DNA from: Phellopilus nigrolimitatus
Taxonomy: Eukaryota > Basidiomycota > Agaricomycetes > Hymenochaetales > Hymenochaetaceae
Length of the DNA stretch: 64,000 nt
Direction: 5' to 3'
Assembly (NCBI GenBank): GCA_021029095.1
Contig: JAJOHG010000077.1
Span: forward strand, 59,277-123,276
Shown here: positions 4,401 through 27,501 of the stretch, piece after piece
How the letters are laid out: every line of letters begins with the position of its first letter
Numbering within the stretch: position 1 is the stretch's first letter
The notes under the pieces: generated by a model
Databases searched by the model: none
Seen by the model: the letters and a program-made list of their open reading frames with translations, nothing else
What the model was told of the DNA's origin: nothing
Position numbers and translations under genes: made by a program

Positions 4401-5836
4401 ATTACCGGACGAAGCGCTGCATCCGCAAAACACGACATTCACACTGTGAATTCCACCGATGTCCATCACAGTTATCGTCCGGATTGAGCCTTCGGGTGCC
4501 GGGCATATGGGAACCGATTCGGAACAGTCATGATTCAGGTGAACGACGAGACCGAGCGTTTTGAGGGATGTAGACTGCCAGTGTAACCCATTCCACTCCT
4601 TTTGTAAAAGATGTTAGGAAAACATTTACTACAGGTATTAAAAAAACATACTCACGTCAATGCGGTGAAGCGGAGAGCGACGGTGCGTCCGGACAGTACA
4701 GTCTCCACACATATACCCGGGTCCATGGCAGTCCTTGCATCGATAGCGCGAGACGAGCTCTTCCTCGCAATTCAAACAATGGGTATGAATGTAACTAGGG
4801 CATACCACGAGTCCCTAGAACCCGTGGAAACCCGTGACCCGACCTGGACTGCAGATCCGTATTCACGGATCACCCGTGTACGGGTGATCCGTGGGAAACG
4901 GATTGTCACGGGTCCGGGTTGAGAATTTGTACTTTTACAATACCCGTGGGTAGTTCATAGGTATATTTTTCGCCGGTTCATTCATTTGTATATTGTACAT
5001 ATGTTGTATGTATCAACTTGCATACTTGTAACTTATTCATTCAACAACCTAATATAATTTTATAATCAGTAAAGACCCGCAGGGAGCTGTGAACAAACCC
5101 GTGACCTCCGTGATCTGGAACCGTGGGAATTTGGTGACCCGTAGATCCGTGTCCCAACGGGTCCAGGTCATGCCGGGTCCGGGTTGAGGATTTTGGGTCA
5201 CGGGTAGATCCGCCAACAGGTCCGGGTCAACCCGGGAATCGACTCGTGGTATGCCCTAAATGTAACCGTCGTGTCGAAGTAGCTCGTCGAGGATCGCATT
5301 GCGCATCGGGACCCAGTCGAGCAACGAGCCAACCTGTACGTAGACAGTCAGAACTAATCTGAGGATGAACTGAAAAGACTAACTTTGTTTTTGTCAGACC
5401 CTCTCTTCGCAACAAACTCAGATATGTCCGTAGCGTCGAGGTCATCTTCAATGTCGAAAGAGGCAGGTACGAAGCTGGTCGACGTGACATCGTCGGTATC
5501 AAAAAGGGTCGGAGTGACGCCCAAGAAAATGTCGGACTCTTCGTCCTCGCTGTCGCTGTCGTCCATCGGCCGGAAGTAGGCCATTTCTTCGTCGAAAGCC
5601 TCCTCGGGCGTGTTGACAGTGACATGGGCATCCAACTCCATAACGAGCTGGTCTTCCTCTTTGTCTATAGTTAGCCGAATGGAGGGACGAGAGCAAGGCG
5701 TTATGTAGCTAGAAATGCTTCGGGTTGTCGAAGCCACAAGACGAGGAGGGGGACACAAGATTGAGTCCGACTCGCTACCGGAGGACAGGTCCTGGCTGCA
5801 ATACACTTCGACCTTCCGCCTTTTAAAGCCAGACAT
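1484..5836 (-). CDS. KDZ transposase with CxC2-like cysteine cluster, split by a MITE
   Basis: Transposase of the Kyakuja-Dileera-Zisupton (KDZ) superfamily, a cut-and-paste DNA transposon group common in basidiomycetes. Reading right to left: an acidic N-terminus (MSGFKRRKVE at 5836), then VGSLLDWVPMRNAILDELL, a cysteine cluster (CLNCEEE, RCKDC, CGDCTV, PLHRID; about 4660-5330), FCGC and RQRWFPA (about 4380-4430), KMLKRAGVAHLPGG (about 4080), DANFRLKCKDRSIDDPALGS (about 3850), CDSGLHAVDHANARG (about 3700), SYDIACQW (about 3440), PKFHIRAH, DGENIERGW, STREMGLGSRHDTLDDQW (about 3160), and the family's C-terminal helical part with LRFAQAADALVTLRR (about 2300) and VEWAKSKARVERWEEEV (about 1870). 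About ten exons with ordinary short introns. The coding exon of the cysteine cluster is interrupted at 4796-5258 by a hAT MITE, so the present copy is probably inactive. Ends of the KDZ element itself were not found. Confidence 0.9.
4796..5258. mobile_element. 463-bp hAT-family MITE inserted in the KDZ gene
   Basis: Non-autonomous hAT element. Both ends are the perfect 18-bp inverted repeat TAGGGCATACCACGAGTC, and the element is flanked by the 8-bp target duplication aatgtaac (4788-4795 and 5259-5266), the length expected for hAT transposons. The body is little more than the two subterminal regions of the family, rich in CCCGTG, GACCCG and GGTCCGGGT motifs. A 30-bp inverted repeat beginning cacggatcacccg is at about 4864-4893. 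Relative to the element at 9202-11314 it is inserted in the opposite orientation: its left end matches that element's right end. It lies inside a KDZ exon, so it arrived after the KDZ copy. Confidence 0.93.
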
Positions 5837-5886
5837 CGCAACCCGTATGCGCGACGCAGGTCGCAATGCAGCGAGAGATTCCACAT

Positions 5887-6557
5887 TTTAACGTTGCGGA
5901 CGAATGAATGACGTGGGTCAAAAGGATGAACGACGCGGATCGAAAGGATGAACGACGCGGGTCGAGAGCGCGTACCAACCAGCTCACGTGCACGACATGA
6001 TGTGGCGTTAAATAGCTATTCCTAGTAAGCCACAAGCAGAAGAAGTTAGTTATGCAAGGCGTGCTTTACACAATTTAGCTCGTAATAGAATGCGAAACAC
6101 CTTTTTTATATCTTTTGTATCTTTTCACGCATCATGTTTGCCTCCTGGCACTACTTCCTTCACTTGGATCTCAAGAACCAACTCGCATGGACGATAAAAT
6201 GAGCTCTTCTCTGCGGCCGTAAACATACTTTCGAAAATTTATAGGTCATGTTACTTCTACAGTTCCACAGCAGGAAGAAGACTATTCATATTGAGGAAAA
6301 TTAGGGACACGCTTTCTGCGAGCTGCAAGTGGAGTCCTGTGGTTTGTTCAAGTACAACCTGAAACGGGTGCGAAGACAAGACAGCTTACCCGCCGAATGA
6401 TTAAACTCGCAGTGAACTACCTCTTCTTGTAACCTCATTGTTGAGACACATGGGCTGGGACAGCCTCGAGGATGGAAAGACAATTGGAAAAAAACAAGAT
6501 ATTGAAGTAAAAATGCTGTCCGAATTTGTCTTCTCATTACCAAACATCCAAATCTAC
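5887..6557. other. Intergenic stretch between KDZ gene and next hAT element
   Basis: No supported gene. Two near-identical 25-bp phrases (gaatgacg/gaacgacgcgg...tcgaaagg) repeat around 5905-5965, just upstream of the KDZ start, in what would be its promoter region. The remainder is AT-rich with only short ORFs. Confidence 0.4.
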
Positions 6558-6738
6558 TAGAGCATAGCACGAGTAGAACCTCGGGTTGACCCGGACCTGT
6601 TGGCGGGTCACCCGTGGCAAAAAATCCTAGACCTGGACCCGGCTTGACCTGGACCCGTTGGGACACGGATCTGCAGGTCACCAAATTCCCACGGTTCCAG
6701 GTCACGGAGGTCACGAGTTTGTTCGCGGCTCCCTCAAC

Positions 6739-7640
6739 TCAACATCTAACGCTTCCTCCATCGGACGGCATCGACATCGCCAATTTGCCCAACCAAGTGC
6801 ACCTTTGTCTCGTTTTCCCCGCCCCTCCCCCGCGCCACGCGCTGACCCGCCCCGTAGAAGCACAAGATCGTCGCGAAGTGCGGCGCGCACTTCACGGTGA
6901 TGGTCGTCGGCGAGTCGGGGCTGGGCAAGACGACGCTCGTGAACACGCTCTTCGCGACGGAGCTCTACTCGCCAAAGAACTACTCGCGGCGGCACCTCAA
7001 GCAGCTCGACAAGCTCACGGAGGTCGAGATTATCAAGACCGAGCTCAAGGAGAAGCAGTTCAAGGTGAAGCTCACTGTGATTGACATGCCCGGCTTTGGC
7101 GACTACGTGAACAACCGCAACTCGTGGGTGCCCATCATCGACTTCGTCAACACCAGCACGAGATATACATGCGCCGGGAGCAGCAGCCGCAGCGCGCGAA
7201 CAAGAGCGACCTCCGCGTGCACGCGTGCCTGTACTTCATCCGCCCGACGTGCTACACGTGAGCCCGGCCTGCTCTTTCTTTTTTGGTGCGGCGGACTGAT
7301 GCCCCATCTGCGTAGGTTCAAGCCTCTCGACATCGAGGTGATGAAGCGCCTCGGCACGCGCGTCAACCTCAGCCCCATCGTCGCCAAGGCCGACACGCTG
7401 ATGCAGGTCGACCTCGCGGTCTTCAAGCAGCGCGTAAGCCCCTTCCTCTCTTCAGCTGAAAAAAAGGTACACTGCTGAAACCCGTCTTGCCGTCAGATCC
7501 GCGAGGCGATCAACGTGCAGGGCATCCGCATCTACCAACCGCCGATCGACGTCGACGACGACTCGAGCGCGGAGCACGCGCGCATCCTGGTGGACGCGAT
7601 CCCGTTCTCCATCATCGGGAGCACGGAGGACGTGAAGACG
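6739..7640 (+). pseudogene. Captured septin fragment (Cdc3-like)
   Basis: Septins are GTP-binding proteins that form filaments at septa and bud necks. Visible parts: DGIDIANLPNQ at about 6762-6796, an intron at 6797-6857, KHKIVAKCGAHFTVMVVG, the P-loop GESGLGKTT, the switch-like DMPGFGDYVNNR, RVHACLYFIRP, an intron at 7258-7315, KPLDIEVMKRLGTRVNL, the G4 motif AKAD, an intron at 7434-7496, and IRIYQPPIDVDDD through FSIIGSTEDVKTPDG. The GIANLPNQ-HKI phrase suggests the Cdc3 subgroup. Near 7140-7150 a small deletion shifts the frame between DFVN and the expected HEIYMRREQQ. After KTPDG (about 7640) septin similarity stops, so the septin-unique element and C-terminus are missing. Retained introns show capture from genomic DNA, not from mRNA. 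Confidence 0.9.
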
Positions 7641-8460
7641 CCCGACGGGCACGCGGCCAGTGCGCCCGCGCACAGCAGGCATCGACCGCCTCCACGGGGC
7701 CTCGCCGCGAGCAGCGGCGCGTCGCCTGTCGTGCCCATGAAACCACACGCCCAGAAAAAGGGCTCGGTCGAGAGCACCGAGTCGCCCTTCCGCATCGCGC
7801 GGCCACCGCCGCGCACATCCTCGGCGTGCAGCACGCCCTTCGACACCTCGTCCCTTTCCGAGCTTGTCGACATCGCCTCGCGCCAGTCCACGCCGTCGCT
7901 CGTGCAGTCGCGGCCGTCCCCCGCAGTCAGCTCGCACTCGCACTCACACTCGCACGCTGCTGCGAAGGCCGCTAGCCAATTACGGCGCGCCGTCACCCCT
8001 GCACATGTGCCACCTGCATCTGCTCGCGCAGCTCATGCCGAGCTTTGCGGATGCGCTCGTCTCGCGCTAGCACGGGCCGCTCGAGTTCGAGAAGGACGGC
8101 CACTGCTACCGTACGCGCTCGAAGCCGAAGAGCCTCAGGGCCGAGATCCAGGAGCGCGGGCACGAGGACAACCTCCTGCACGTCCGCCGCGGGCAGCCGC
8201 CGCGCACGTCCCGCCCACAAAGCAGCCACTCATCGCCGTACGGGCGTAGCGCAGTGCCGTCGCCACGCGCACCAGTACGCGCCGCCTCCTGAGATCCGCT
8301 TGCCGCCAAAAGTATGCATCTCACCATCGCCGCACGTGAATGTGGCCTCATCTTACCAACGCTGCACAATCAACGCGGTCCCGACGACCTCTGCACTGAT
8401 GTGCTCTTCTGTGAAAAGAGCTGGACTCGCGTTTCCTGACTACCGAATTCACTGCTAGGC
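7641..8460 (+). pseudogene. Second captured segment in the same element, identity unknown
   Basis: Directly after the septin part the frame continues into Ser/Pro/His-rich sequence (SPFRIARPPPRTSSACS, SHSHSHSH), followed in another frame by a plausible globular stretch (HMCHLHLLAQLMPSFADAL at about 8005-8065, then a TAG, then a charged stretch HGPLEFEKDGHCYRTRSKPK). The shifts and the stop suggest a decayed fragment of a second host gene fused to the septin piece inside the transposon. I do not recognise the family. Confidence 0.45.
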
Positions 8461-8776
8461 TTACGCATGGCTTCCTTCCATGGCAATTTCTTTGTTCGCT
8501 CTACGTACCATACATATATATGACATACAAATAAATGTACTTTTGCTACTCTAATCTTGAAAACCTGTGTGAACTACCCGCAGGTTTTGAAAAAACACAA
8601 TTTCTCAACCCGGACCCGCGAAAACCCGTTTCCCACGGATCACCCGTGCACGGGTGATCCGTGAATACGGGTCTGCAGTCCGAGTCGGGTCGCGGATACC
8701 TGCGGGTTCCAGGGAGTCGTGCTAGGCTCTAAAATCTACAGGTAAAAAGACATTATGCAATCTACCGTGCCTCGTA

Positions 8777-9201
8777 GCCTCAGCGTAATCCGACCCCAGG
8801 ATCTCGTTATTCCTCCACTCGAGAGAATACGCCTTCGGAGCACGCTTCTATCTCGACGGTCGATGACAAACTTAAGACGGCACGACTGGCCCAACTCAAG
8901 CGAAGCAGGGAGAAGGAGCCGGAGGTCGAACTTGAGCGCGCACGGGGTACTAAAAGGCAGAAGGTCAGTGCCTCGCCTGCCAGTCCGCAAAAGAGCATTT
9001 CCAGCTTCAGCGGAAGAACTCGTGTGCCGAGCATGAAGATTCGCCAGCACAATGAACCCGAAGTGAAAGTTGAAGGCATCGAAGACGTTCCTTTGCATGG
9101 ACCCGTTGGCCGCACTTCTAGGAATAGTCAGAAGAAGAATACCGAGCCCGAGAATGCCGGTCTTATCTCGTCTAGCCTCAGACGTTCGCACCGCTGCGCG
9201 A
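8777..9201 (+). pseudogene. Open frame fragment truncated by a hAT insertion
   Basis: A frame without stops runs from about 8777 into the left end of the hAT element at 9202. It encodes a charged, probably nuclear protein segment (SRYSSTRENTPSEHASIS, KLKTARLAQLKRSREKEPE, TKRQKVSASPASPQKS, KVEGIEDVPLHGPVG, SRNSQKKNTEPENAGLISSS). There is no ATG near its start, so it is an internal exon or remnant. The final 25 or so residues recur at about 12177-12245 with mostly silent changes, which supports this frame as the real one. Function unknown. Confidence 0.45.
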
Positions 9202-9486
9202 TAGGGCATACCACGAGTCGATCCCCGGGTTGACCCGGACCTGTTGGCGGATCTACCCGTGACCCAAAATCCTCAACCCGGACCCGCTTCGACCTGGACC
9301 CGTTGGGACTCGGATTCACAGGTGCCCCCAAACCCGTGGGTCCAGGTCACGGAGGTCAGTGGGTATATTTACGGTTCCCTATGGGTTTTTGAATCAATTA
9401 AATATATTAGTAAACGAGCACTGGCCGCATTCTCACGCTCTTCTTCCACACCGCTCGCCGAAGCTGTCGCCCTCATTGATGTCAAC

Positions 9487-9894
9487 AACCTCCGTTGAAG
9501 ACGCCGCGGCGCTGCTCGCGGCGTGCGCTCCTTCTAGTCCGAGGACAACATCATTCTTGATCGTAATTGATTGAACCGCCGCGACGCCCTCCATCAGGTC
9601 CAGCCCCGCAAAACGAGGTCCGCCGAGTCGACATTATCAGCAAGGACGGTTGGGATCGCACGCAGGGCCCGCGCGAAAGCCTCGGCAGCGAGTGCCTGTT
9701 TGCCCGCGACGCACCGCGCGTCGTCATCCACTGCACAGCTCATGCGCATCTGCGCATCCACGCGTGTCGCGGTCGGTCTGTGAGAGCACGGACAGGGCGT
9801 CGTGTAGCGAGTGCTCGGCCTCGTCGACCATCTGTGTCGTCGAACCGCCCAATACTGCCGTGCATGCCTGTCCCGCGGCGACACCGGAAAGCTT
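9487..9894 (-). pseudogene. Captured chaperonin fragment, CCT2 (TCP-1 beta)
   Basis: CCT2 is one of eight subunits of the cytosolic chaperonin that folds actin and tubulin. The minus strand reads [71 protein letters not shown], and in a shifted frame AGLDLMEGVAAVQSITIKND VVLGLEGA. These phrases correspond in order to the apical and lower equatorial domains of CCT2 (DEAERSLHDAL, ADNAGYDSADLV, AGLDM). The GGG-containing loop before CAVDD is altered to AQMRM and a frameshift lies near 9605, so it cannot make a working chaperonin. It lies antisense to the ARPC3 piece in the same transposon. Confidence 0.88.
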
Positions 9895-9896
9895 GA

Positions 9897-10527
9897 TCAG
9901 TTGGGAAGGCTCAGTTGTAAGTCATAAGTTGAGGTTTTTGATGGGTTCTGAGCACAGAGACTACCACAGGCTGGTTCACCTCGTCTAAGGACAGGGATAC
10001 AAAGGCACTCGTTCTTTGCATTCCTGTCCCGCTCGCACGGCTCTGGATCTGGTTCGGCAAGCTCCTCTTCGATGCCTTCAACTGCTTCGCTCTCGACACC
10101 CGAATCTTCGTCTGTCTTCAGCACACCCGCGTCTGTCTCCGCCTCCGTAGGAACCGTGTCCGCTCAGGCGCAAACACATTGTTCGCTGCTTTCGCTTAGT
10201 TCCTCATGTTTCGGCTAGTCGAGCGCGGGGCGGCTTGTGCGCACGTTCGCGTTCGGCACGGTTGCGGTGCGCCTCGTAAATGTGCCGCTCGAGAACGTCG
10301 ACTACGCTAGCATCGGCGCGCGCGTCCTCGCGGAGTCACTCGCCGGCGCGCCCGCGCTATTCGGGATCCCCGAGTGCCCTGCAGCGGAGGGGCGCAGGCT
10401 CCACGTACTGGCTGAGCTGGGTGCGTTCGACCTCGCACTCGGCGTGAACATCGTGTACAAGGCGGCGCAAGCCTGCAGGCGTGGTCGTCTAGCACAGCGT
10501 GCAGGCGTACCACTCATCCTTCAATGA
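9897..10527. other. Unidentified cargo between CCT2 and ARPC3 fragments
   Basis: Two open segments that look like pieces of genes but match nothing I recognise. On minus, 9897-10124 encodes an acidic stretch (EAVEGIEEELAEPDPEPCE) followed by a Cys-containing one (NECLCIPVLRRGEPACGS). On plus, 10237-10527 encodes RLVNVPLENVDYASIGARVL then LHVLAELGAFDLALGVNIVY. Either could be a third captured fragment; the second also overlaps the intron or upstream part of the ARPC3 fragment. Confidence 0.3.
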
Positions 10528-10900
10528 GCTCCCCGACGTCCATCAGGTCGACAACGTGTCCATTCTCCCCATCAGGACAAAGGTTCGCGGACCCGCGCCA
10601 ATAGGTGCGTCTCTACATGCTGTTTGCACAAATATAACCGACCCGAGACTACCAGCGGATGCCAGTGAGGCCGACGTTTTTGACGAGACACTCGATCTCT
10701 TCTGCGCCAACTCGCTTTTCCGCAACTTCGAGATCAAGGGACTCTCTGACCGTGTCCTCATCGTCCTCATTCTTTTTGTCTCCGACTGCCTCGCCAAAAT
10801 CAGTTCCGCGTGCACCGTGCCGGCCCAGATCAAGGCATTCAAGACCCTCAACACGCTCGCCATCGACAGCTTCGCAATTCCTGGCGATGCGAGCTTCCCT
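10505..10900 (+). pseudogene. Captured ARPC3 (Arp2/3 complex subunit 3, Arc18) fragment
   Basis: ARPC3 is the 21-kDa subunit of the Arp2/3 complex that nucleates branched actin. The segment begins at a splice acceptor (gtgcag before 10505) with AYHSSFNELPDV, continues SILPIRTKVRGPAPI, contains a canonical intron at 10605-10655, then reads ADASEADVFDETLDLFCANS, LFRNFEIKGLSDRVLIVLIL, FVSDCLAKIS, KTLNTLAIDSFAIPGDASFP. This is about the first two thirds of the family (usual length near 175-180 residues). The start-codon exon is missing and similarity ends at about 10900, so the C-terminus is absent. The retained intron again indicates genomic capture. Confidence 0.92.
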
Positions 10901-11375
10901 TGTACTCATACACCTCGTCGTGCCCCTGCGCCGGACGCACTGCGGAGTCGAGCACGATCGAGTGCGTCTTCGACACCAACTCTGGGGAGGAGGGTGCAAC
11001 CTGCGCGGCGCATATGCCCGCGTGTACCATGTCAATCCATATTGCTTTTGTGCTTATGTGCTTATGTGCGTTGGGGTCATTGCTGATTCAAATTGTATTT
11101 CCATGCATACATAAATATAACATAAAAATGAACGAACTGCCTCCTCAGACCTGTGAACTACCCACGGGTATTAAAAATCGAGAATTCTCAACCCGGACCC
11201 GCGACAAACCGTTTCCCACGGTTCACCCGTGTACGGGTGATCCGTGAATACGGATCTGTAGTCCAGGTCGGGTCACGGGTACCCACGAGTTCTAGGGACT
11301 CGTGGTATGCCCTACTGCGCGATCATTATTATATTTCTTTCTATTATACTTTTACTTATTACACACTAAACTAGT

Positions 11376-11515
11376 TTACCTTGTATTAGGTTAGTTAAAG
11401 ATATAGACATTTGCACCGCCGCACGATCGACTGAACTTACCTTGTATTAGGTTAGTTAACAATATAGACATTTGCACCGCCGTGCGATCGACTGAGCTTA
11501 CCTTGTATTAGGTTG
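11376..11515. repeat. 61-bp tandem repeat, 2.3 copies
   Basis: A unit beginning ttaccttgtattaggttagt and ending cgatcgactga occurs at about 11376-11437 and 11438-11498, with a third partial unit to about 11515. Only a few substitutions separate the copies. It starts 60 bp right of the hAT element end. Confidence 0.8.
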
Positions 11516-11559
11516 TCTCTCGCGCGGATCCTGTCTCACCCTGCAAAAGAAGGCCAAGT

Positions 11560-12290
11560 GTGACGGACGAAAGTGTAGTCAGTTCTGCTGAAGAGCAACC
11601 TGTGGATGATGATGGTGACGACCGTCGTGACAAGACATTCTGGCCTGCGTTACCTTCTCTTCCTCCTGTGGGCGATGGAATTAGGCGTACAGGATTGCTG
11701 AACATGCGCCCGAACCCCATGCTTGTCTCACGCTGGAGGACCAGTCCAGTACGCTCGACGCATTCATCAGACAGTACGCCTAATCTTGTCGACGACGACA
11801 CGGATGAGGGCACATCCGACGAACATCCCGCTACGCCGGAGAACAATGGCAGTACCCCAGAAGCTGTGGAGAGCACAGAGACCAGTCATGACATGCCGCC
11901 GAACTCTGATGATGATGAGGAGAATGAGAACGACGTGGAAAACACTGCTTGTTTGTCGAAGAGACTGACGGTCTCCACTTTCAAGAGCTTTGGTCTCATC
12001 GCGAAACCGAGCCCCTTAGCATTGTCGAAGCGTGTCTGAGCGCTGCCAGCACCGATAGCAGATCCCGATTGTGAGGAACTAAACCCTCTGGCGCCCAGTG
12101 AGCCAATGTCACCTAAGCGAAAGCGCCGCAAACACACCCCCACACCTTCCCCTACTCAGCCATTACATGGAGCGTTGGCTGCACTTCTAGGAATAGTCAG
12201 AAGAGAAATTCCGAGCCTGAGAATGCCATTCTTATCTCATCTAGCCACAATAGAGGAAGGCTATGTACGACGCATGAGAGTGTAGCCAGT
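11560..12290 (+). pseudogene. Acidic ORF with one in-frame TGA
   Basis: An ORF starts at 11560 (MTDESVVSSAEE) and runs 159 residues to a TGA at 12037-12039. It is rich in Asp, Glu, Ser and Thr (DDDTDEGTSDE, NSDDDEENENDVEN). The same frame stays open after the TGA to about 12282 and contains a basic patch (SPKRKRRKHTP), so the ancestral protein was probably longer and nuclear. From about 12172 the DNA matches 9100-9180, but the conserved reading frame there is a different one. No known domain. Confidence 0.4.
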
Positions 12291-12406
12291 CCTCGTTGTC
12301 ACTAGGTAATGCTTGAGCTGGTATAGGCAGTCTTCTCGTGGATGTTGCGAAGAGCTGCCCCTAGATGCCTTCGATTCCTGGTCAACTCATTAGCTCTTGC
12401 GTAGTA

Positions 12407-12838
12407 AAGCATTCCATGGAGTTGCTAATGCCCTAATCAACATAACGACTCAAAGTGATATAGACTGACTCGTACCGACGTAGCTCCAGCTTGTTCAGTT
12501 CAGGGTACTGGAAGATGCAATGAAACATGTCTGACTGCTCATTGTTATGGGGAGCAAGGACAATGAAATATACAACATTCTCGAGAGTGTTGAGTACGTT
12601 TTGTGAGACCAGTACTAGTCGAGCATTTCATGAAGTTGCTAAAGCCCTAATTAACATAAAGACTCAAAGTGATATAGACTGACTCGTACCGACGTAGCTC
12701 CAGCTTGGTCAGTTCAGGGTGCTGGAAGATGCAATGAAGCATGTCTGACTGCTCATTGTTGTGGGGAGCAAGGACAATGAAATATACAACATTCTCGAGA
12801 GTGTTGAGTACATTTTGTGAGACCAGTACTAGTCGAGC
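12407..12838. repeat. 214-bp tandem duplication
   Basis: The block starting gcattccatggagttgct (about 12407) is repeated from about 12621 (gcatttcatgaagttgct) with roughly 95% identity and a period of 214 bp. On the minus strand the second copy has a 65-residue ORF (12647-12844) containing LVLVSQNVLNTLENVVYFIV and HPELTKLELRR, reminiscent of leucine-rich tails of fungal F-box proteins, so this may be a duplicated gene remnant. Confidence 0.75.
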
Positions 12839-12844
12839 TTGCAC

Positions 12845-13413
12845 CAGATCTAATAAAGACCGGGACGATCACGAAAACATGCCAGTTTCATTCGAGCTAA
12901 ATGTCTGTCTCCTCTATACCCAGGGGGCTCGAGGATGTACAGTTAATTTATTCATCGGAGCAGCTGTCTGTTGTAATGTCTCACTCGTAGTCGGCTTTCA
13001 AATTTCAAGTTCATGGTTTACATATTATTATTATTTATGTTTAAATACTCGTTTCATTTCATTGGATCTCTTCCTGTGTCTCATGCCTCAGACATTTTCG
13101 ACACTGATAAATCAGCTGGGATTTCTATGAGATCTGTGCTGGCATCATCGTTGCATAGAGTTCCAAGCAGCAAACCCAAGTAGTTATAAAGGAGCAAATA
13201 TAATCACTGATATTCGGATGACATACTACAAAACAGAAGACAATACCGAGTCAATAGGGAGCGCGAAAGCAAGATACCATGGAAGGTAGGCACAACACAC
13301 GATACGTAGTACGCAAGTTTTTAAAAAACAGAGAAAGATCAACAACTGTATGCATAACCAAGACGGGATCTGTAGTCCGAATCCGAGACGAGAATGACAG
13401 CTTGTACAGATTT
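12845..13413. other. AT-rich stretch without a gene
   Basis: Only short ORFs are present. It lies downstream of the minus-strand gene at 13414-15078 and would hold its 3' untranslated region and terminator, which cannot be pinpointed by eye. Confidence 0.4.
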
Positions 13414-15078: not shown

Positions 15079-15429
15079 CGTCGTTTCTGCGTGTTCTGGG
15101 CTAGACAAACATATGAGTTGTATCACCATTAGATACTAGAGGTGAGTGACTCTGACGTACCTAGTGCTTAAGAAATGATTGAGACGCTCTTTGGAGTAGT
15201 GCGGGTGATATGGGGGGATGAAACGAGGTGAACGGTCATCCTATTCATCTACCCAGCAGAAGTGTAAGTTTAGATGGTGCTTCCGTGCTAAAGGCCGATC
15301 TTTCCACGTCGATGCGGGTCATAGGGGATGTAGAAGTCTTCGAAACTCACAGGAATGCTTCTGAAGATCCTCCGAGACAGAAATACAAAGTAGCGATACT
15401 GCGCATTTATTCAAAGAATAAAATTTGTT
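15079..15429. other. Upstream region of the RNaseH1_N-like gene
   Basis: No gene supported. It should include the promoter of the minus-strand gene that starts at 15078. No clear TATA or CAAT motif can be assigned. Confidence 0.35.
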
Positions 15430-15606: not shown

Positions 15607-15612
15607 TTGTGG

Positions 15613-16102: not shown

Positions 16103-16105
16103 GTT

Positions 16106-17124: not shown

Positions 17125-17127
17125 CTG

Positions 17128-17347
17128 TCTTTCGAACTTGATACATGCGCGCGGCGTGCACCGAATAGTTTGTGGCCGCAAGCTCGACATCCGTTGCAGG
17201 TCGGGGAGGGAATACGCGAAACCAGTCGTCGTACAGCGAGTGAAAGAATAATGTTGTCGTATCTCTCTGGTACGCACGATGGAAATATGGGTAGCGTTCC
17301 AAAAGCCAAACGTGTTGTTCGTATGTTGCCCACGCAATCCGAGCCAT
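17128..17347 (-). pseudogene. Second orphan first exon of the WFNN-type family
   Basis: Minus-strand exon encoding MARIAWATYEQHVWLLERYP, FHRAYQRDTTTLFFHSLYDD, WFRVFPPRPATDVELAATNY and ending at a clean donor (cccgaGTAAGT). It aligns in pattern with 16106-16318 and with the first exon of 17818-20605 but is much diverged. No downstream exon with a WFNN motif is seen toward lower coordinates. It lies head to head with the complete gene, 470 bp apart. Confidence 0.6.
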
Positions 17348-17817
17348 GCTGAATACGCAGCGTAATGATGATTGTTGGAAGACAAGTCAGTAGGTGGCTC
17401 CCCTACGACTTCGCTGTCCTGGTCACGAGGTGTCGCAGCGAACTTAAATTCAACATTTCCTTTACGAATGGAGATTAAAACACGTGTATTGCGATCACGG
17501 TGGATATGGCATTGCCGTTGTTCCCTATGCGATCTGAAACGTACATTGGAGAAAGACTGTTGATGCAAATCGCTTGAGTTGCGGGAGAATAAAAAAAGAT
17601 TGACCAATTTGATCATACCTATCAGAAAAAAGGAAAGCAAGATTCACGTCAACAGGACACCACGGAGATTTGATCCTCACGACTTCTTGAAAATAATACA
17701 GGACTTGATATAGTTGACCACAGCGAACGCTGGTCTGTTTGATTAGTGGTAAACATTCGCGTATCACCCCATATCACGTATCACCCCATATCGCAGCTTT
17801 GCGTCTTCTCATTCACA
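17348..17817. promoter_or_regulatory. Shared upstream region between divergent family members
   Basis: 470 bp between the divergent starts at 17347 (minus) and 17818 (plus). A short direct repeat, gtatcaccccatatcac, occurs just upstream of the plus gene (about 17760-17793). No core promoter element is certain. Confidence 0.35.
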
Positions 17818-20605
17818 ATGCCCGGACGCAAATGGGCAGAAGGTCGCTCTCTCAAACTCTTGACTGACAACATCGCTGCCTATGAGAAAGCACAGGACGA
17901 CAAATCGTTGAAGGTCTTTTTCATCGACTTTTTCATTGTCTGGTTCCGAGAGATCCCGACCCCGCCGTCTGTCAACAGAGAGATGCAGATCGCGTTCATA
18001 AAAAAGGTGAGCTTTTGTGAGCATGAAAGTGAAGGAAATACGAACTCACTTTTTGCCAGCGTATCAAAGCCTGGTTCAACAATCACAGCGGTGCCCGAGG
18101 CGACAAGCGTCTTCAAGGAGGGCGCACCATTCGAAAAGCCTTGGAAGCTTTGGTCATCGGCAAGGGTCCATCGCGCAAAAAGCAAAAACTTCAGCCTGTC
18201 CAGGCGTACTCTGAGCTGTACTGGCGTGACAAGCTGCGCGGTCCGATCTTAGAGGCATGGGAGGACGAGAAGAGGAAGAATACGGCCCTTTCACACAGAG
18301 ACTATATCGCGTTCATGAACGCGAAGCTCAGGATTCTTTTACAGAACGAAACTCCGGAGGTCCAGGCACTTGTTGAGGAGCATCGCAGCAAAGCTTCCAA
18401 CATCGCTGAGCCTGCGGATACCGCTCTACTTCATGCTGGCGAAGAGGTCTTGCCAAAGGTTGAGCAAACTCGCCTCTCGAGTGCACGCGCGAAACAGATG
18501 TGAGTTTTTGGAGCATCTCAGAATTCAAACGACAGGATACTGAGACGTGTTTCAGGTGTATCGATAACTTGCAGCCAGTCTTAGCAGAGCTAGTATCGAC
18601 CATCTACGAGCACACCGGACTAGTGTCCTTCGTCGTGGTTGGTGGCCCACAACCTGGACGCGACGGACGCTCAGTCGTGTATACGTAAGTATTTGTCTCT
18701 ATTTGCGAGTTTTTACTCAACATACCTACAGTGTCTCTTCTGGGTGCACCATTGACACCGAGCAACGATTCGAAGAGTACCATCCCCACTTCAAACAACA
18801 GGTGCATGGGCCGTTTAAACAATTCGCTCGAGACTGCTATAGTGAGTTTTCATATGCTTACACGGCCACTCGTATAAGAAACCTAATATATTTCACTTGC
18901 TTGTAGACGATGAGCAGCGCAAAAATTTGAGCCTCAAACCTCTCTGCGAGCCGACCTACACAACGGATGAGTATCTATCGGACATCTTCGCTCCTGAAGA
19001 TCCAGAGCCGGCTTCTGCGTCGATCCCTGTGGCTGTTGCGCTGTCCTCGGTCGTTGATGGTTTCGGTGTGACACCTCCTTCGCTGTCTTCTTCCGTCTTC
19101 GATTCTGCTTCCAAGAAGAGGAAGCGCACGAAATCAAAAGATGCTGAAGCTAATTCGGACTCGGATGAATCAGACGACGACTTCGACTTTCCGCTCCTGC
19201 TTGAAGACTCCGACGATGGCGTCGACGACTTCATTGACATCGGCCCCTTCGCTGCGAAACCTCCTTTCAGTCCTACTTCGGCAGATGATGTCGGTCTTGA
19301 TGTCGTCGCGCAGCGCGTTGATGAAAGCGGCGCAAAATATGTGAAGATCCGTGGCCGTGATGGATGGATCACAGATTACGAACTCATTCGCCTGCGGAAC
19401 ATCGGGCGTAATAACGCTCTTATGCGCTCAATGGACATTTCAGACACCACATACTCCATTCCTACGCTTATCCCTCAAAAATACTCTGTCGACAAGACCG
19501 CGGAAGTGTTATTCCCCCGCAAGAGTTTACCTCGTCACGCGAAAAACGGTTTTACTTAGTAGGTCGCTGTCTCGTCGTATTTTATACTGTGTGCTCATCT
19601 ATATACTTGCAGCGAACTTGATGTTGCAGACAAGGACGTCAATGACGGCCTTGTCGTTTTTGATGATCAGCGCGATCGCTATGACCGCTCAAGCTTTTTA
19701 TTATCCGCCGACCAGGATAGCCGTCGCGAGAGCGTAGTGCCGACGCCGCTTTATGAGCCAGTCACGTCTTTCGCCATCGACCCCTCTACAACACTCACAG
19801 CAGCGCACGCACATACGCAATATGTAGCTCCGCCGACGCCGACGCCTCCATCCACGCCTGTTGCCGTGCACGAGGTCGCGTCCATCAACGTCAATGAGCT
19901 ACCGGACTGGCTTCAGGTCCCAGGTCAACACATGCTCGATAACTTTCGCGGTGTGGACGAAGACGATATTTTAAGCAACTGGTTCGCGATTGAGAAGTCT
20001 CTAGCAGAAACAACGGTACGACACTCACATATCTCATTAACGTATCCAGTATCTAAACTTCTTGTTAGCTATCTAATCAGCTTATGGGTACGCATGATCG
20101 ACCGACGGAAGTTCCGGCTTGGACGAGGGCGAAGCGGAACACAAACAGTACTCCCAAGCTAGACCTCGATACCTTCCCTCCAAAATGGCGCTCATGGTGG
20201 TCCTCTCTTCAGCCCTTCTGGCGCCCGCAGGAGGGTATGGATTGGCCTTTGGGATTCGCCGAGCCTGCGAATGAAGAGTGGCTACACGTTAGGAAGGCAG
20301 GGAAAAATGGTATTTTTCTTATCGTACTCACCCTCTATTGGTGGCGTATCGCAGCCGAGACTGATGCGCAGAAGGCAGAGTATCGTTCTGCTCTTGAGGA
20401 CGTGGCGTGGGTCTTCGCTAGACTCGCGTCACTGCCACCACCTCTCGCAATCAGTTCGACTACACCCACTCGTCACCGCCCGAAGCCGTCGCGCAAGGAA
20501 GGCTCAACTGCTACCGGTACGACCTCGCCTGCCACTAGATCCAGGATTAGCAAATCGGCACCGGGTGAGAAAAATGTACTGCGTCGGTCAGGAAGGAAGG
20601 TTTAG
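17818..20605 (+). CDS. Agaricomycete-specific nuclear-type protein with a WFNN motif
   Basis: Seven exons joined by clean GT-AG introns: 17818-18006, 18060-18497, about 18557-18684, about 18731-18839, about 18907-19558, about 19612-20015, about 20081-20605. The N-terminus (KWAEGRSLKLL, FFIDFFIVWFREIP) leads into RIKAWFNNHSGARGDKR, which resembles the recognition helix of a homeodomain (WF-N), then AYSELYWRDKLRGPILEAWE. A long acidic, Ser-rich middle with a KKRKR basic patch follows (about 19110). The C-terminal part has LPDWLQVPGQHMLDNF and a Trp-rich block (FPPKWRSWWSSLQPFWRPQE, VRKAGKNGIFLIVLTLYWWR). I know this architecture as a large family of unknown function in mushroom genomes. DNA binding is inference from the WFNN phrase only. 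The frame appears uninterrupted. Confidence 0.65.
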
Positions 20606-20783
20606 TGAGCGCATCTGTCGTTTTCTCATCAAGTCTACTGTTCTCGGTCCGTCGTACCCCCTTTTTTTTGTCCCTTCACTATTATCCTTCAATTTTTATC
20701 CTATTGCGTGACGCCATTATCAAAAAAAAAGCCCTACAATCTCTATTTCTTGCTGTCTTGTCGCCTTTACTCCATCACTAATA

Positions 20784-21252
20784 ATGTTGCACCGTCGAGT
20801 CTCTGTCGCATCGCGTGCTCCCCCTTCCCCTTTCTTGTTCTTGCCGTGTCGCCGTCGCGTCGCACGCCCCCCCATTTCTTGTCCCCGCCGCGTCGAGTCG
20901 CTGTCGCGTCACGTGCTCTCCCCCCATTTCTTGTCCCCGCCGCGTCGAGTCGCTGTCGCGTCGCGTGCTCTCCCTTCCCTTTTCTTGTTCTCGCCGTGTC
21001 GCTGTGGCATCGCGCGCCCCCCATTTCTTGTCCCCGCCGCGTGTCCCCATTTCTTGTCCTCGCCGTGTTGCTGTCGCATCGCGTGCCACCATTTGCTTGT
21101 TCTTGTCGTGTCGTGGCCGCATTGCGTGCCCCCACTTTCTTATTCCCGCCGCGTCGCGTGTCCCCCGCCGAGTCGCTCCCATGTCGCGTGCATTCCCATT
21201 CCTTTTTATCGCTAGAAAAACTAATATTGTTACCGCTGTGTCTGCTGCGTCG
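20784..21252. repeat. GC-rich minisatellite, left part
   Basis: Degenerate tandem repeats of a pyrimidine-rich unit of roughly 25-60 bp with cores cgccgcgtcgagtcgctgtcgc and ccatttcttgtcc. Long open frames on both strands here are by-products of the repeat. The array is cut by the hAT transposon at 21253 and resumes at 27502. Confidence 0.85.
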
Positions 21253-21269
21253 TAGGGCATAGCACGGGT

Positions 21270-21764
21270 CACGTTTACCCGCGGATCCCCACGGGTAGAT
21301 CCGTGGCAATACCCACGGGTTCGGGTCACCCCGTGCACGGGTCACCCGTTTCCCACGGTTCAGACACGGGTTCGGGTCTGATTTTTTGGCAATCTACGGG
21401 TTACCCGCAGGTAATTCAAGACCCGTGCTTGTAGAGGGTAGTACAAATGTTCAGTAATTGTGAAGCCTATTATGTTTTGAAGAAACACCGTCGGTAAATT
21501 ATCAAGTTTGGAAACAATATGGGATCGGGTTGAGGAGCATCACGTGCCGAAGATGATCTTCGAGAGTAGAGAATCAGTCGAAGAAGAGACTGTTGAAGGT
21601 GTTGAAGGAGTGGTCGGCCTCGCTGGTATACAGCTCAAGGAACTATCTTTACGGGACGCGGAAAGTGTGAGTGCGGATGGAAGTGTTTCGTTTGCCATTC
21701 AGATGTATAGATGACAATTGTTTATATAACTCATTTTCGAGAGTAGTGCGAAGCTACGAGACTA
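21270..21764. other. Left subterminal region of the hAT element
   Basis: Repeated CCCGTG/CACGGG motifs lie between 21270 and 21430, probably transposase-binding sites as in other hAT elements. A 68-residue plus ORF at 21508-21714 (EEETVEGVEGVVGLAGIQ) has no recognised domain. Confidence 0.5.
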
Positions 21765-23592
21765 TTATATACTAAAATCACTGAGCAACCCCGGCATGTC
21801 ACTATATTCATCATCTGAAAGTACCGCAATACTCTGCAGTCTGGTGATGTGAGCGAGTGCAGACTCGGACGTTGTCGCTGAGTCGGTCGTGCCGGATGCG
21901 ATTGTCATAGTAAAGCCAGGGGTATCAATAAGACTAAAGTACACGGAAAAAAGGTCCATCTTGTCCCAGACGGAGTTGCCACCCTCCGCACGGCCCTCCT
22001 GGTAGAACTTGACGATCTCCTTGCCGGCCTGCGAATTCTTCTCCTGCTCCGAACACGAGATACCCGAGTCCTGAAGCAGCTGCTGCCGCTCGTGCAGCAG
22101 ACATGTAAACTCGTCCGTGCTCGCATTAAACCCAGCGTGCGTCAGGTGCACGGGGTCGTACGGCATGCTAATCTCGGGCTTCTCCACGTGCGCGCCATTC
22201 TTGCCCGAGCCCGAAATAGAGCCTGAGGCTAACCCCGAAGCGCTCGAGGGGCCCGACTTGGATGCGGAGCGCGAGCACGGGGCGAATGTGTGCTCGGGGG
22301 AGACGTCGATGTGGGTGGGGGCAGAGGCAGGCGGGGGCGGGGAGTGGAGCGCAGGCTCGGCGGCGTAGTAAGGGTCAGGAGCAGGCGGCGGTGCACTAGG
22401 CAGCGAAAGGCGGCGGTGCGCTGCGCGCTCGGGGGCCTCCTGTTGTGGGATGGATAGGTCATTGAAGTCGACGGTATTCTGGCGCGAGGGGCGCGGCCGG
22501 GGCGAGGTCGCGGCGGCCATGCTGCTGTCGTCGTCCTGCCCTCCGCTGCTGCTTGCGCTGGCGGGATGTTTTCTGGAGACTGGCACGGACGCGGTCGCGG
22601 CACGGGAAGGTGGAGGTGCTGCTGATGCTGCTGCCTTCTCCACGTGCGCGCCATTCGTGCCCGAGCCCGAGATAGAGCCTGAGGCCGACCCCGAAGCGCT
22701 CGAGGGACCCGACTTGGACGTGGAGCGCGAGCGCGGGGCGAACGTGTGCTCGGGGGAGACGTCGATGTGGGTGGGGGCAGAGGCAGGCGGGGGCGGGGAG
22801 TGGAGCGCAGGCTCGGCGGCGTAGTAAGGGTCAGGAGCAGGCGGCGGTGCACTAGGCAGCGAAAGGCGGCGCTGTGCTGCGCGCTCTGGGGGCTCCTGTT
22901 GTGGGGTGAATAAGTCGTTGAGGTTGGCGGTGTTCTGGCGCGAGGGGCACGGCGGGGGTGAGGTAGCGGCGGCCATGGTGCTGTCGTCGTCCTGCCTCTG
23001 CTGCTGCTTGCGCTGGCGGGGTGTTTTTTGGAGACTGGCGCGAACGCGCTCGCGGCGCGGGGAGGTGGAGGTGCTGTTGATGCCGCTGCCGCTGCCCGTT
23101 GTCGCAGCCGTCGTCGTCAGCGTCGTCTGCAGCGGAGGCGTCTTCGCACGATGAAGAGGGGTAGGCGTGAACGGCGGCTGCAAGGACTGTTTCGTCACGA
23201 TCGATGGGGACGGAGAGCGCGATTCAAAAGAGCGTGCTCACCTGATGACTTGCGTGCGCTACCGCCTGGATGGCCCCGTCTGCGAGCACGTTGTCGTATT
23301 CCTGGATGGACGTCCTACTCGGCCTGATGTACTCGACGTCGAGGCGCGCGGGGTCGAGAATAGGCGGCGTACCAGGTTCGCTGAAGTATGCGAAAGTGAG
23401 GCAGAAAGGCGTATGGTGCAGTGAAAGTGGAACTGGTGCGCGTTCCGTCGTTACCTTCGGCTTGCTCGACACTGTCGTCGTCGCGGATGGCCTCGTCTGC
23501 GAGCGCGTCGTTGTATTCCTGGCCTGATGTACTCGACCGTCGCCTTCGGCTTGCTCGTCACTGTCGTCGTTGTGGATGCACTGTTGCTGCAC
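21765..23592 (-). CDS. PAK-type CRIB-domain protein lacking a kinase domain (transposon cargo)
   Basis: The main minus-strand ORF (21765-23198, 477 residues) ends with a CRIB/p21-binding domain typical of Ste20/PAK kinases: EISMPYDPVHLTHAGFNAST (about residue 342), DEFTCLLHERQQLLQDSGIS, EQEKN, EIVKFYQEG, VWDKM. CRIB domains bind GTP-loaded Cdc42 or Rac. The kinase domain that normally follows is absent; the protein ends about 75 residues later. The usual HVGF and LPKEW are changed to HAGF and LHERQ, so binding may be weakened. Upstream is low-complexity Ser/Pro/Ala sequence with an in-frame 152-residue tandem duplication. A further exon may lie at about 23242-23592 (TPPILDPARLDVEYIRPSRT), joined by a donor at 23241 and an acceptor near 23187. 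It runs antisense to the transposase. It looks like a captured and rearranged N-terminal half of a PAK gene; expression is unknown. Confidence 0.75.
22180..23092 (-). repeat. 456-bp tandem duplication inside the CRIB gene
   Basis: The segment beginning tctccacgtgcgcgccattc at 22181 recurs at about 22637 with very high identity. The period of 456 bp is divisible by three, so the protein keeps its frame and repeats 152 residues (for example PSAPPPAPDPYYAAEPALHS occurs twice). The high similarity suggests a recent duplication. Confidence 0.88.
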
Positions 23593-24086
23593 GGCCGAGA
23601 TGGTGATGTGGGGTGAAGGTGAAGTCGACTAATCAGGTCCCAATTAGGATGCAGCTGATTCAGCTGCGAGTTTGCCAGCTCACCACGCTCCTACCTACCG
23701 TACTCCACGACTCTCCACGACTCACTCAACAATGTATCGTGGAGGCCTTTTAGCCCAAGCTCCGTGCGCTGCGCAGTCTGCGCGTTTTAATTTCTGTGCT
23801 TCTTTCTGACTTTCGCGGCGCTGGCAACTGTTTTTTTTACCTCTGGACTTTTCTCGTGCCCCGTGCCGGACCTCTTCACATCGCGTCGCACATCGTCTGT
23901 CGTGTCTGTTATGTCTTATTGCTGTGGACAACGGTAATCCGTTCCTTCTGCCCGATGGAGTCTATGATTGGTGAGTTCCCCGCTGCTGAACAGCTGTCTT
24001 CAATATCTGTATAAATAGTAGTCTAATTTTCTATCAGTCTGATCGTGCTCGTCTCCCCCCATTGTTCCCCGCCTTAAACTCATCAA
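23593..24086. other. Spacer between the two divergent genes of the hAT element
   Basis: Non-coding stretch between the minus-strand CRIB gene and the plus-strand transposase, probably holding both promoters. Short direct repeats (cctaccgtactccacgactc/ctccacgactcactc) occur near 23690-23730. No further gene is seen. Confidence 0.4.
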
Positions 24087-27000
24087 ATGACAAAAAAACG
24101 GTCGGCGCGCAGCAAGCGGAAAGCGAAGGTCATCGAGATCAGTGACGACGAAGGTGGCGGGTTTTCGCGCGAGTCGTCTCAAGCGGTCAGCAGTACGACT
24201 GCGCCCGAAGTCGGCGGGCGCAAATCCAAGAAGCGTGTCAAGAAGCTGTTTGAAGATCGCTTCGACACTGCTACGAACAGCAACCAAGCAGTGCTCAGTA
24301 TGTCCTTCTCTTCTTTCCGCTTCTCTTCTTTTTGAAATAAATACTCAAGTATATTATAGCTGCGCAAATGAAGCTATGGAACTCGCCGGTCTACGCTCAC
24401 TTCCACTCACCACCCGAAATCAAGACCTTCGCGGACGGTACAGTCAAATATATGTTCAAGTGCGGAAGGTGAGTCGCTCGTCTTATTTATTCTCTAATTT
24501 ATTCTTTATTGATATATTATTTTAATTATTAATAATTACATAGAGTACCATCGGCGCTATTGGTCGGGCGAGCGCGCGATGACACATCGACAGCAAATCT
24601 CAGGCGCCATGTCAGATCCTGCGCGCCGCTAGAAAACTCGCAGACCCAGCTCCTCAAAGCCTTCGCGCAGGGATCAACATATTCTCAGTCGCGTTTACGG
24701 TTTCTTCTCGTCATGTGGATTGTTCGGCATCACCGCCCGTTTGCAATTGTGCATGACGCGGAGCTAATCGCAATTTTCCATATGTTCTGTTCTTCGGTCA
24801 TCGTCCCCTCACCTTCTACGATATCACGCAACATTCAGGATGTCTTCCGCTTGGCCAAGAAAAACATGTTAGCAAAGCTTGAGGTACGTTTCGAGTTTAC
24901 TTTAGTTTTACTTAACTAACTTTAAGCTATGTAGGCATATCCAGGGAAGTTCCACGTCGGTATTGACGGTTGGACTTCCCCGAATGTCATATCGTTTCTA
25001 GGTGTAGTTGTCCATATGGTCGAGGATAATAAAATGATATCGTTTATATTAGACTTCGTAAAGTAAGTAACTGATATTGCCTCGCCATCTACCATTCGCT
25101 CACTATCTAAACCAGGCTCACGAAAGCTCACAAAGGTGACTACCTCGCTCAACAGTTAGTGAAATGTCTAAAAGAGTTCGGCATCGACAAGAAGGTACGC
25201 ATTGCGACCTCAGACCCGTCCTTATATTTATATGGCTTATATTAACAGATTCTCGGTGTTGTCTGTGATAACGCATCGAACAACGACACCCTTATTTCGG
25301 AGCTTGAACTTGCTTTAAACAGTCATAATGGGTCTCACACTCGCATCCGCTGCTTCGCACATATTTTGAATCTTGTTGTTAAGGTTAGTCGCTCGTTACG
25401 GTGTCTACGCATTATATGCTCAACAAATACCTAGGCTCTCCTATCCCTTTTCAACTACGAAAAGCCCGCAATCATATTTGCGGGCTCGGCCAGTGACAGT
25501 GTCGAAGATGACGGGAACGACAGTATTGACGAAGAGGAGGACATCAGCGACACTGCTGATGGTGACGGCAGTGACAGCAACACAGACGACGAGGAAGATG
25601 AATCCGAGTCAGAGGAGGACAACAGCGGAGAGGAGGACTCTGACGGTGATGACGACGATGATGACGATGATGACGATGATGACAACACATCCGTCCTGCA
25701 AACACCTGAAAATACTGACGTTGATGTTGATGCTGACCGCGAGGCCAGCGACGATAGGTACTTGAACGAGCTCATAAAGGAGATCAATAAGAACGAGAAA
25801 CTGAGGCCGGACCAAATTCGCCTTGGTCGCGGAGCCATAACTAAGGTATGTTTCTTTCTACTTTATTTATTATGATAGTTCAAAGGCTAATACATTGTAT
25901 GTCGTAGCTCAAGAGACTCGCGAAACGAACCTGCCACTCACCGAACCTCGTTAAGGACCTCAAGATGTGTTGCCGCTCGACAGGTGTTAGTCCGGCAAAA
26001 AAAATGCTTCGACCAGTCGCGACTCGATGGAATTCTGTTACGGAGGCGCTTGGTCGCGCGATCTACCTGCGGCGCGCGTTGGACAAACTCGTGGACCTCA
26101 AGCATCATAATGGGCCACGCACGTCCCAGCTCAAGCGTTATAAGTTCAAGCCAGACGAGTGGGACATTATGATCCAGCTTTACGCTGTCCTTAAGGTATG
26201 TTTAAATAGCCATAATCTTTTCTCTGCGAGATATTGCCTGACTGTCTTTCTAAGCCTTTTTTACACGCAACAACAAGAATATCGAAATCGAAGGTCCCCC
26301 TTCTTCACGAGGTTATTCCCCTTATTGACGTGCTCACAAAACGGCTGGACACCGCGATCCTCAACAAGAATAACCACCCCGTTGTTCGTGCAGCTGCCGC
26401 ACGCGGTCGCGAAATGCTCAATAAATACTATGCGAAAACTGACGATTCAATCATGTATCGAATGTCTATGAGTACGTCCACCTCTCTTCTTGCAACGGGT
26501 TCGAATGGATCCTTGGAAAGCAGTACTGCAAGACTGCGCGCTCTCAAACGCGATATTGCCTCCGTACTGTGTCTTTTCTGCGACGTAATCTGACATCGTC
26601 TTTCCTTCAACAGTGCTACATCCCGGGTACAAGACCATATACTTCGAGAAGCAAGGCTGGCCATCTGAATGGATTGAGACCGCGAAACAGGTGCTTAAAG
26701 ATGAGTGGGACGACAACTACAGGCCTGTGGAAGAAAGTCACGTCGAGGCCGAAGATAATGTACGTTGGCCTTAATTTCTAATTGAAAAGTATATTAATGT
26801 CTTTATAATAGTCTGTATCAGATATCGAAGATAGCAATGGCCTTTTCTCCAACATCGACAACTGGGGAAAAGGGGGAGCCTTGCGTACGAAGATGGATGA
26901 GTACATGCAGAGCCCGATTCTTCCGAAGGTTAAGGACCCTATCGGATGGTGGTCAACGATAGCAGATACAGGTGATTCGTTTGCTCGCATGGCTCTTAAC

Positions 27001-27275
27001 TACTTGTCTGCTCCTGGTACGTCTCATTTTCCTCTTTATATCCCTTATTAATTTATTAAATTATAGCTACGTCTGTTGATGTCGAGCGTGCATTCTCGCG
27101 AGGAACGCTGACTGTATCAAAATATCGGCATGCTCTCACGGATGAGTCCACGCGTGCTCAGGTTGTTCTCGGTTCATGGTCACAAGTTTCAGGCATTATA
27201 GATGAGTCGGAGGTCCTGCACACATTTGACGGCAAGTCTAATAAGCAGAGAAGGAGGAGAAGGGCCTTAAAGTAG
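24087..27275 (+). CDS. hAT superfamily transposase
   Basis: About twelve exons with short GT-AG introns. The start MTKKRSARSKRKAK is basic, followed by a BED-like zinc finger region (FADGTVKYMFKCGR, then TSTANLRRHVRSC at about 24590). The RNase H-like catalytic core follows: FHVGIDGWTS with the first Asp (about 24955), VVCDNASNNDTL with the second Asp (about 25265), CFAHILNLVVK (about 25355), a long acidic linker (about 25500-25690), then LRPVATRWNSV (about 26005). The C-terminal hAT dimerisation region has WWSTIADTGDSFARMALNYL (about 26950) and ATSVDVERAFSRGTLTVSKY (about 27067), supplying the catalytic Glu. The protein ends KQRRRRRALK at 27275. I saw no stop or frameshift inside the exons, so it may be active and may mobilise the related non-autonomous elements. 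Confidence 0.93.
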
Positions 27276-27501
27276 TTTCTATCTAATTATATTGTCGTAG
27301 AGATTTTTTGCTACTCAATACTGAAGACCCGCGGGTGACCTGCCATACCCACCCTGACCCGGACTCACCATACCCGGACCCGCAGGTGTACTGACCTGCG
27401 GGTCCAAGGGTCATGCACGGGTTCAGGTCAAGATTCTGAAAATCTCATACCTGTTTAAACGGGTCCGGGTCTACCTGCGGATCGACCCGTGCTATGCCCT
27501 A
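27276..27501. other. Right subterminal region of the hAT element
   Basis: Dense GACCCG, CCCGCAGG and related motifs up to the right terminal repeat at 27484-27501, mirroring the left end. Confidence 0.6.

Follow-up and report, generated by a model that had tools for sequence, protein, structure and literature searches.

Introduction

Gene capture by transposons of the hAT superfamily is, as described in the reports cited below, already known in maize and rice, in animals and in one ascomycete. In this study, we analyzed a 64,000-bp stretch of the Phellopilus nigrolimitatus genome (the window; contig JAJOHG010000077.1, positions 59,277 to 123,276, here C611), in which four mobile elements with common ends lie close together. 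We consider it very likely that they belong to a hAT-superfamily cut-and-paste family that behaves as a Pack-hAT, the elements being filled by gap repair and then moving as units.

In animals, the report on Pack-TIRs (TIR, terminal inverted repeat) assigned 208 of 370 to hAT, the commonest superfamily, described only four (1.4%) as multicopy, and proposed gap filling of internal breaks, which it tied to single-copy cases (PMC8277862). Gap filling is near the mechanism that we prefer here; however, the animal elements are reported to be rarely multicopy, whereas at least the septin and ARPC3 elements described below are multicopy (PMC8277862). In Pyrenophora tritici-repentis, a hAT transduplication of a histone H3-like gene was reported together with a Tc1/Mariner case (PMC3538342). 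As described there, that system resembles ours in being a fungal hAT with extra open frames between the TIRs and with a longer, likely autonomous form beside a shorter one, but it concerns one hAT family with histone H3-like cargo, whereas here many host genes lie in many elements as nested mosaics (PMC3538342). The best named transposase matches of our element are also in Agaricomycetes, unlike the Pyrenophora case. The Pack-hAT and Pack-TYPE elements reported from maize and rice share with ours the hAT ends, the 8-bp target-site duplication (TSD), captured coding DNA and chimeric interiors; they are plant elements, and the route favored for them, tandem insertion followed by re-mobilization, is not favored by the nested layout seen here (PMC8903248).

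A first-pass annotation of this DNA held that gene capture is described mainly in plants, which is out of date given the reported animal Pack-TIRs and the Pyrenophora hAT. Our searches of open-access literature gave no published Pack-hAT family for a basidiomycete. Pleurotus ostreatus reportedly has gene-capturing Helitrons, which would likewise be basidiomycete mobile elements with gene fragments. Helitrons are not known to have TSDs or TIRs, whereas the window elements have both. What is new here is a rich family with unusually readable nested captures and with empty sites in the same assembly.

Results

Shared ends and target-site duplications

The window was searched with the 18-bp consensus TAGGGCATASCACGRGTC, allowing up to three mismatches. 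Eight matches were obtained, which were the eight ends of the four elements that had been annotated (4796-5258, 6558-8731, 9202-11314 and 21253-27501; 463, 2174, 2113 and 6249 bp) and no others. The chance expectation for this count was 0.10, and none of 100 shuffles reached eight. Six of the ends were perfect, and the two ends of 6558-8731 had 2 and 3 mismatches. Each element was flanked by an exact 8-bp TSD, and all four were different. Together with both TSD copies, a miniature inverted-repeat transposable element (MITE) of 463 bp spans 4788..5266 (AATGTAAC), a septin-carrying element 6550..8739 (AAATCTAC), an ARPC3-carrying element 9194..11322 (CTGCGCGA), and a transposase-bearing element 21245..27509 (CTGCGTCG). 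Ends of the G type (TAGGGCATAGCACGGGTC) bound the transposase-bearing element, and ends of the C type (TAGGGCATACCACGAGTC) bound the MITE and the ARPC3 element; the two types differ at 2 of 18 positions, and the ends of the septin element are a third variant.

We then considered the whole assembly (56.4 Mb, 635 contigs). With up to two mismatches, 148 + 163 = 311 end places were found against 0 + 1 for the reversed pattern. Among the first 100 listed end places, 70 formed 35 inward-facing pairs, 376-6592 bp apart (hand count). In the stretches read from the assembly, there were 38 distinct places with two inward-facing ends, the window's four among them, when an insertion met three times was counted as one and the loci L017 and L018 as two. 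An exact 8-bp TSD was present at 35 of the 38. The TSD of L012 3876-9700 had one mismatch, L023 301-763 had no matching TSD and is unexplained, and L028 301-6892 had none because its flanks were exchanged with an inverted neighbor copy. Seven further elements (two each on C13 and C434, one on C622 and both of the remaining septin copies) all had exact TSDs, giving 42 of 45 distinct two-ended places in total. The target-site consensus of 37 TSDs showed weak preferences only. The short TIRs and the 8-bp TSD expected of hAT are thus both present, and the ends, TSDs, transposase matches and genome-wide copies agree with the annotated single hAT family.

The MITE group was found at 13 distinct places, with copies of 431-474 bp that are 83-100% identical among themselves. 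One MITE had the same TSD on two contigs (L017 and L018; C114 and C146), as expected for an insertion common to two haplotypes or to a duplicated region. On C423, two inverted 6.6-kb transposase-bearing copies lie 380 bp apart (C423:5721-19284; L028 301-6892 and 7273 onward). Their TSDs, GCTCAAAG and GCTCCAGG, are swapped between the copies, as would be expected of a footprint of recombination between inverted copies.

Empty sites on contig C54

For the first three elements, the flanks were joined with one TSD copy removed, and the same assembly was searched. Contig C54 matched the pre-insertion sequence of all three sites without a break. When C54 was read directly, the three sites were empty, with one copy of each 8-mer, and the flanking pieces were 99.4-100% identical. 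Farther along, C54 and the window were 99.7% identical over 9.36 kb and then 98.0% over 354 bp in a repeat stretch. C54 also continues without a break through the site where the window has its fourth element, with a single CTGCGTCG between the two window flanks. The insertions are therefore present at four of four sites on C611 and at none of four on C54, where each site has a single 8-mer. These results bear out the first-pass annotation in that the elements are real insertions, and the empty sites that it had suggested looking for in relatives were all found within the same assembly. Since the four insertions occur on only one of two near-identical copies of the region, they are probably recent.

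C54 may be the allele of the other nucleus or a young duplicate. C54 ends inside the region, and an assembly in 635 contigs leaves room for a recent segmental duplication in place of an allele, or for excision of the elements from C54. However, the four sites carry a single, unaltered 8-mer with no footprint, and hAT excision usually leaves footprints; an element-free duplicate would still be an empty site, so that only the word allele would change. We regard this explanation as unlikely.

The transposase-bearing element sits in short repeated sequence (window 20500-21250 and 27500-27900, by eye), and this stretch is of unequal length on C611 and C54. A single query covered the junctions of eight further insertions, and 40 of its 172 candidates were scored. 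A continuous match was obtained for five of the eight, and three of these five were in multi-copy sequence or had several matches. The remaining three had no continuous match among the 40 candidates scored, which says little either way.

Captured fragments in the septin and ARPC3 elements

As annotated, three of the elements contain host-gene pieces, which belong to septin (PF00735), ARPC3 (PF04062) and P21-Rho-binding domain (PBD; PF00786) families. In the septin element, a septin gene fragment at 6745..7653 on the plus strand (element bases 188-1096; PF00735, 7.8e-41) keeps its introns and has a 1-bp frameshift relative to its parent. It is 90% identical to the C90:366204-367111 region over 943 aligned columns, introns included. 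A second captured fragment follows at 7647..8204 on the plus strand and is 78-79% identical to members of a multi-copy family; at one member, L044, a long open frame ends in a Rua1_C domain (PF14616, 3.2e-8). Counting the window copy, the septin element occurs in full three times, with a different TSD each time. The other two copies are 98.6-98.8% identical and have their own exact TSDs, CGCCACTG and CTGCCGCA.

The interior of the ARPC3 element is a nested mosaic. The ARPC3 piece at 10480..10899 on the plus strand (PF04062, P21-Arc, 1.8e-36) is 91% identical, ungapped over 420 bp, to C223:507422-507841, and it keeps an intron-like GT...AG stretch. It interrupts a Methyltransf_16 piece, which is found on the plus strand at 9500..9528 (L048 117-145, 100%), 10228..10474 (L048 162-687, separate matches, 78-90%) and 10905..10983 (L048 732-812, 84%); L048 matches PF10294 at 1.4e-16. 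Inside the methyltransferase piece lies an unnamed gene Y (C112/C339), found at 9525..9582 (L050 743-686, 90%) and 9943..10227 (L050 425-50, 87-95%), for which a profile search of L050 gave no Pfam family. Inside gene Y, in turn, lies a TCP-1 chaperonin piece at 9582..9932 (L049 488-78, 83-97%; PF00118, 4.6e-42 in L049). Read along the element, the pieces come as methyltransferase, Y, chaperonin, Y, methyltransferase, ARPC3, methyltransferase. Those from any one gene are collinear with its parent, and the methyltransferase, gene Y and chaperonin matches cover much of the interior that remains beside ARPC3. With a reversed query, none of the four parents was matched. About 16 bp of methyltransferase were lost at the Y insertion and about 44 bp at the ARPC3 insertion.

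A copy of the ARPC3 element was also present at C622:9482-11594 with a different TSD, CCAGGAAG, and no difference between the two copies was seen in the 1721 interior bases compared. The septin and ARPC3 elements have thus moved with their cargo, in three and two copies. An older ARPC3-carrying relative with its own TSD (GTTGGTAG) lies on C434, and a hAT element with its own TSD (AGAGACGC; L059 752-2835) is nested inside it.

Insertion of retroposed host transcripts into the elements would also bring in fragments of many unrelated genes, and the Argonaute piece described below is without about 150-160 bp found at one place in most of its genomic relatives, which could be an intron. However, the septin introns are kept and align to the parent, the ARPC3 piece has its intron-like stretch, and the fragments are internal and partial. 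Since the septin and ARPC3 pieces keep introns, copying from DNA is indicated. Judged by these alignments, retroposition is largely refuted for the two pieces, and as a general explanation it is highly improbable.

A different route would be capture by neighboring insertion and joint mobilization, in which two elements lie on either side of a gene piece and their outer ends then move together. The report on maize and rice proposed this route for plant Pack-TYPE elements, across every DNA superfamily including hAT (PMC8903248). Several elements do lie close together here, and the element on C434 is nested with its own TSD. Joint mobilization predicts remnants of internal ends, whereas only the eight outer ends match in the window (at up to three mismatches; more decayed remnants were not searched), and the fragments are nested inside one another. 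Because of this nesting and the lack of internal ends within three mismatches, gap repair is favored, and we consider joint mobilization improbable.

Cargo across the family

To describe the cargo of other members, frames of at least 70 aa from 15 further non-MITE elements were pooled, up to 10 per element (137 of 244 frames), and scanned against Pfam; selected frames were then scanned singly, and L008, L012 and L028 were outside the scan. In 8 of the 15, a Pfam family above the curated cut-off could be placed. These were Argonaute/Piwi in L013, CNOT1 in L026, FHA in L029, ribosomal S19e in L030, S19e, S1 and eIF2-alpha in L033, AMP-binding in L035, Velvet and BET in L036, and CPSase in L039. 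L010 had a sub-threshold WD40 match only, and in L015, L021, L031, L032, L034 and L037 no Pfam match was placed in up to 10 frames each. Some pooled matches, for example DUF3819, eIF3a, SUV3_C and IBN_N, were untraced to a single element. Host-gene fragments between the ends and without a transposase, the mark of Pack-TYPE elements, were thus found in the septin and ARPC3 elements and in 8 of 15 others. Parental copies lie elsewhere for septin (C90), ARPC3 (C223), the methyltransferase (C157/C230) and the chaperonin (C625/C531/C185), and the donor locus appears reasonably clear for septin and ARPC3 only. In other elements, parents were sought for the Argonaute piece only.

Relatives of this Argonaute/Piwi piece were found at more than 20 places with 72-90% DNA identity (C390, C4, C27, C368 and others). 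Several share a contig, and alleles placed on different contigs may account for some. Argonaute/Piwi appears to be a strongly expanded gene family in this genome. A role of the captured Argonaute in counter-silencing was considered and dropped, as with so many relatives in the genome one partial copy says little. A bias toward cytoskeletal cargo (septin, ARPC3, PBD) was likewise dropped, since other elements carry S19e, CNOT1, eIF2-alpha, CPSase, Velvet, BET, FHA, AMP-binding and Argonaute. We also counted changes in the captured pieces. Going from parent to element, C>T/G>A changes against T>C/A>G changes were 31 and 8 for septin, 22 and 11 for ARPC3, and 11 and 10 in the PBD region. Nothing was built on this, because the bias is uneven, CpG sites do not stand out among the changes and there was no control.

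The transposase-bearing element and its PBD frame

A predicted hAT transposase gene lies at 24087..27275 on the plus strand, with 12 exons, 825 aa and no internal stop; its introns (50-142 bp) were placed by hand. Residues 716-794 match PF05699 (Dimer_Tnp_hAT; 1.4e-10, 41.2 bits against a cut-off of 21.4), which is the C-terminal dimerization region expected of hAT, and the best solved relative is Hermes (8edg, 2.6e-8). Judged by eye, candidate stretches for the catalytic DDE triad of the RNase H fold are also present. The top 12 of 57 homologues were 36-46% identical over 80-99% of the query. Those with names were from the Agaricomycetes Antrodiella, Phanerochaete, Coprinopsis, Trametes, Agrocybe, Ganoderma and Coprinellus, and the best one was nameless.

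More transposase-like loci were found in the genome itself, on C346, C25, C4, C488, C603, C423 (two) and C290, with a partial one on C622 and weaker matches beyond these. The C423 genes lie between C-type ends, in the two inverted copies. On C603 and C488, one C-type end each was seen, with the transposase-like locus a few kb inward. The element at 21253-27501 had been annotated as the probable mobilizer of its neighbors. Since the window copy has G-type ends, unlike the MITE and the ARPC3 element, and related transposase genes sit with C-type ends on C423, C603 and C488, its role as mobilizer of these two neighbors is not supported in the annotated form, and cross-mobilization of C-type neighbors by the window transposase is possible. 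The annotated contrast of one autonomous and three non-autonomous elements stood for the non-autonomous gene carriers, whereas the element called autonomous also carries the PBD gene piece.

This piece is an internally duplicated 490-aa open frame with a PBD/CRIB domain at 21765..23237 on the minus strand (PF00786, 1.3e-13). It has relatives on C346 and C25, within stop-free open frames of 464 and 565 aa, respectively, and both places also carry a transposase relative. Divergence has brought the transposase DNA of the C611, C346 and C25 places down to 71-77%. For the two main matches on C346, amino acid identity is 78-80%, near the 83% DNA identity of the stretch, which hints at constraint on the frame. 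One lineage of the family might thus have adopted a captured PBD/CRIB (Cdc42/Rac-binding) gene as a second, functional gene. If so, the PBD protein may place the transposase or act on host signaling. We regard adoption as rather doubtful, since the C346 matches omit residues 196-342, open relatives occur on C457 and C179, where no transposase was seen, other PBD relatives carry stops, and the region has a G+C content of 64%, at which chance yields long frames.

Within the PBD region, a 110-bp insert at 23339..23448 is 98% identical to C90:493658-493767. In the C457 relative of the surrounding sequence, the two bases on either side of the insert are next to each other; one joint carries a single extra base, and no bases were lost at the receiving site.

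Elsewhere in the window (37493-58544), five long open frames on both strands are paralogue-like among themselves. They might be F-box-like genes.

Discussion

The elements of this family inserted with 8-bp duplications, contain intron-bearing host DNA, multiplied in their filled state, and hold fragments nested inside one another. In the mechanism that we propose, a hAT transposase would act on the common 18-bp ends and make the 8-bp duplications, as its family membership suggests. The interiors are filled with DNA copied from unlinked host genes. Internal breaks would be repaired by copying short stretches of other loci, usually with little loss, as the nesting suggests, and later fragments would thus land inside earlier ones. 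The filled element would then transpose as a unit and multiply. Because the fragments are nested inside one another, we infer repeated internal break repair with foreign DNA as the filler, and the filling step would correspond to the break repair with a foreign template that was proposed in the report on animal Pack-TIRs (PMC8277862).

Several points weigh against this interpretation. The gap-repair step is read from the order of the fragments, not from a caught intermediate. About 260 bp of gene Y are missing at the chaperonin insertion, no small loss, and the joints have either overlaps of 0-7 bp or 1-10 bp of sequence with no explanation, counted without a chance control. For gene Y, the chaperonin, PBD, the Rua1-like fragment and Argonaute, the donor is multi-copy. 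No Pfam match was placed in six of the 15 scanned elements, a seventh had a sub-threshold match only, and 3 of the 45 two-ended places had no exact TSD. There is no direct evidence of current movement or transposase activity, the transposase being predicted from an open frame.

How host DNA enters hAT elements is disputed. In this genome, nested captures, their parents and empty sites occur in one assembly, so the captures can be placed in order one after another, and competing mechanisms are testable on one genome with hundreds of family ends.

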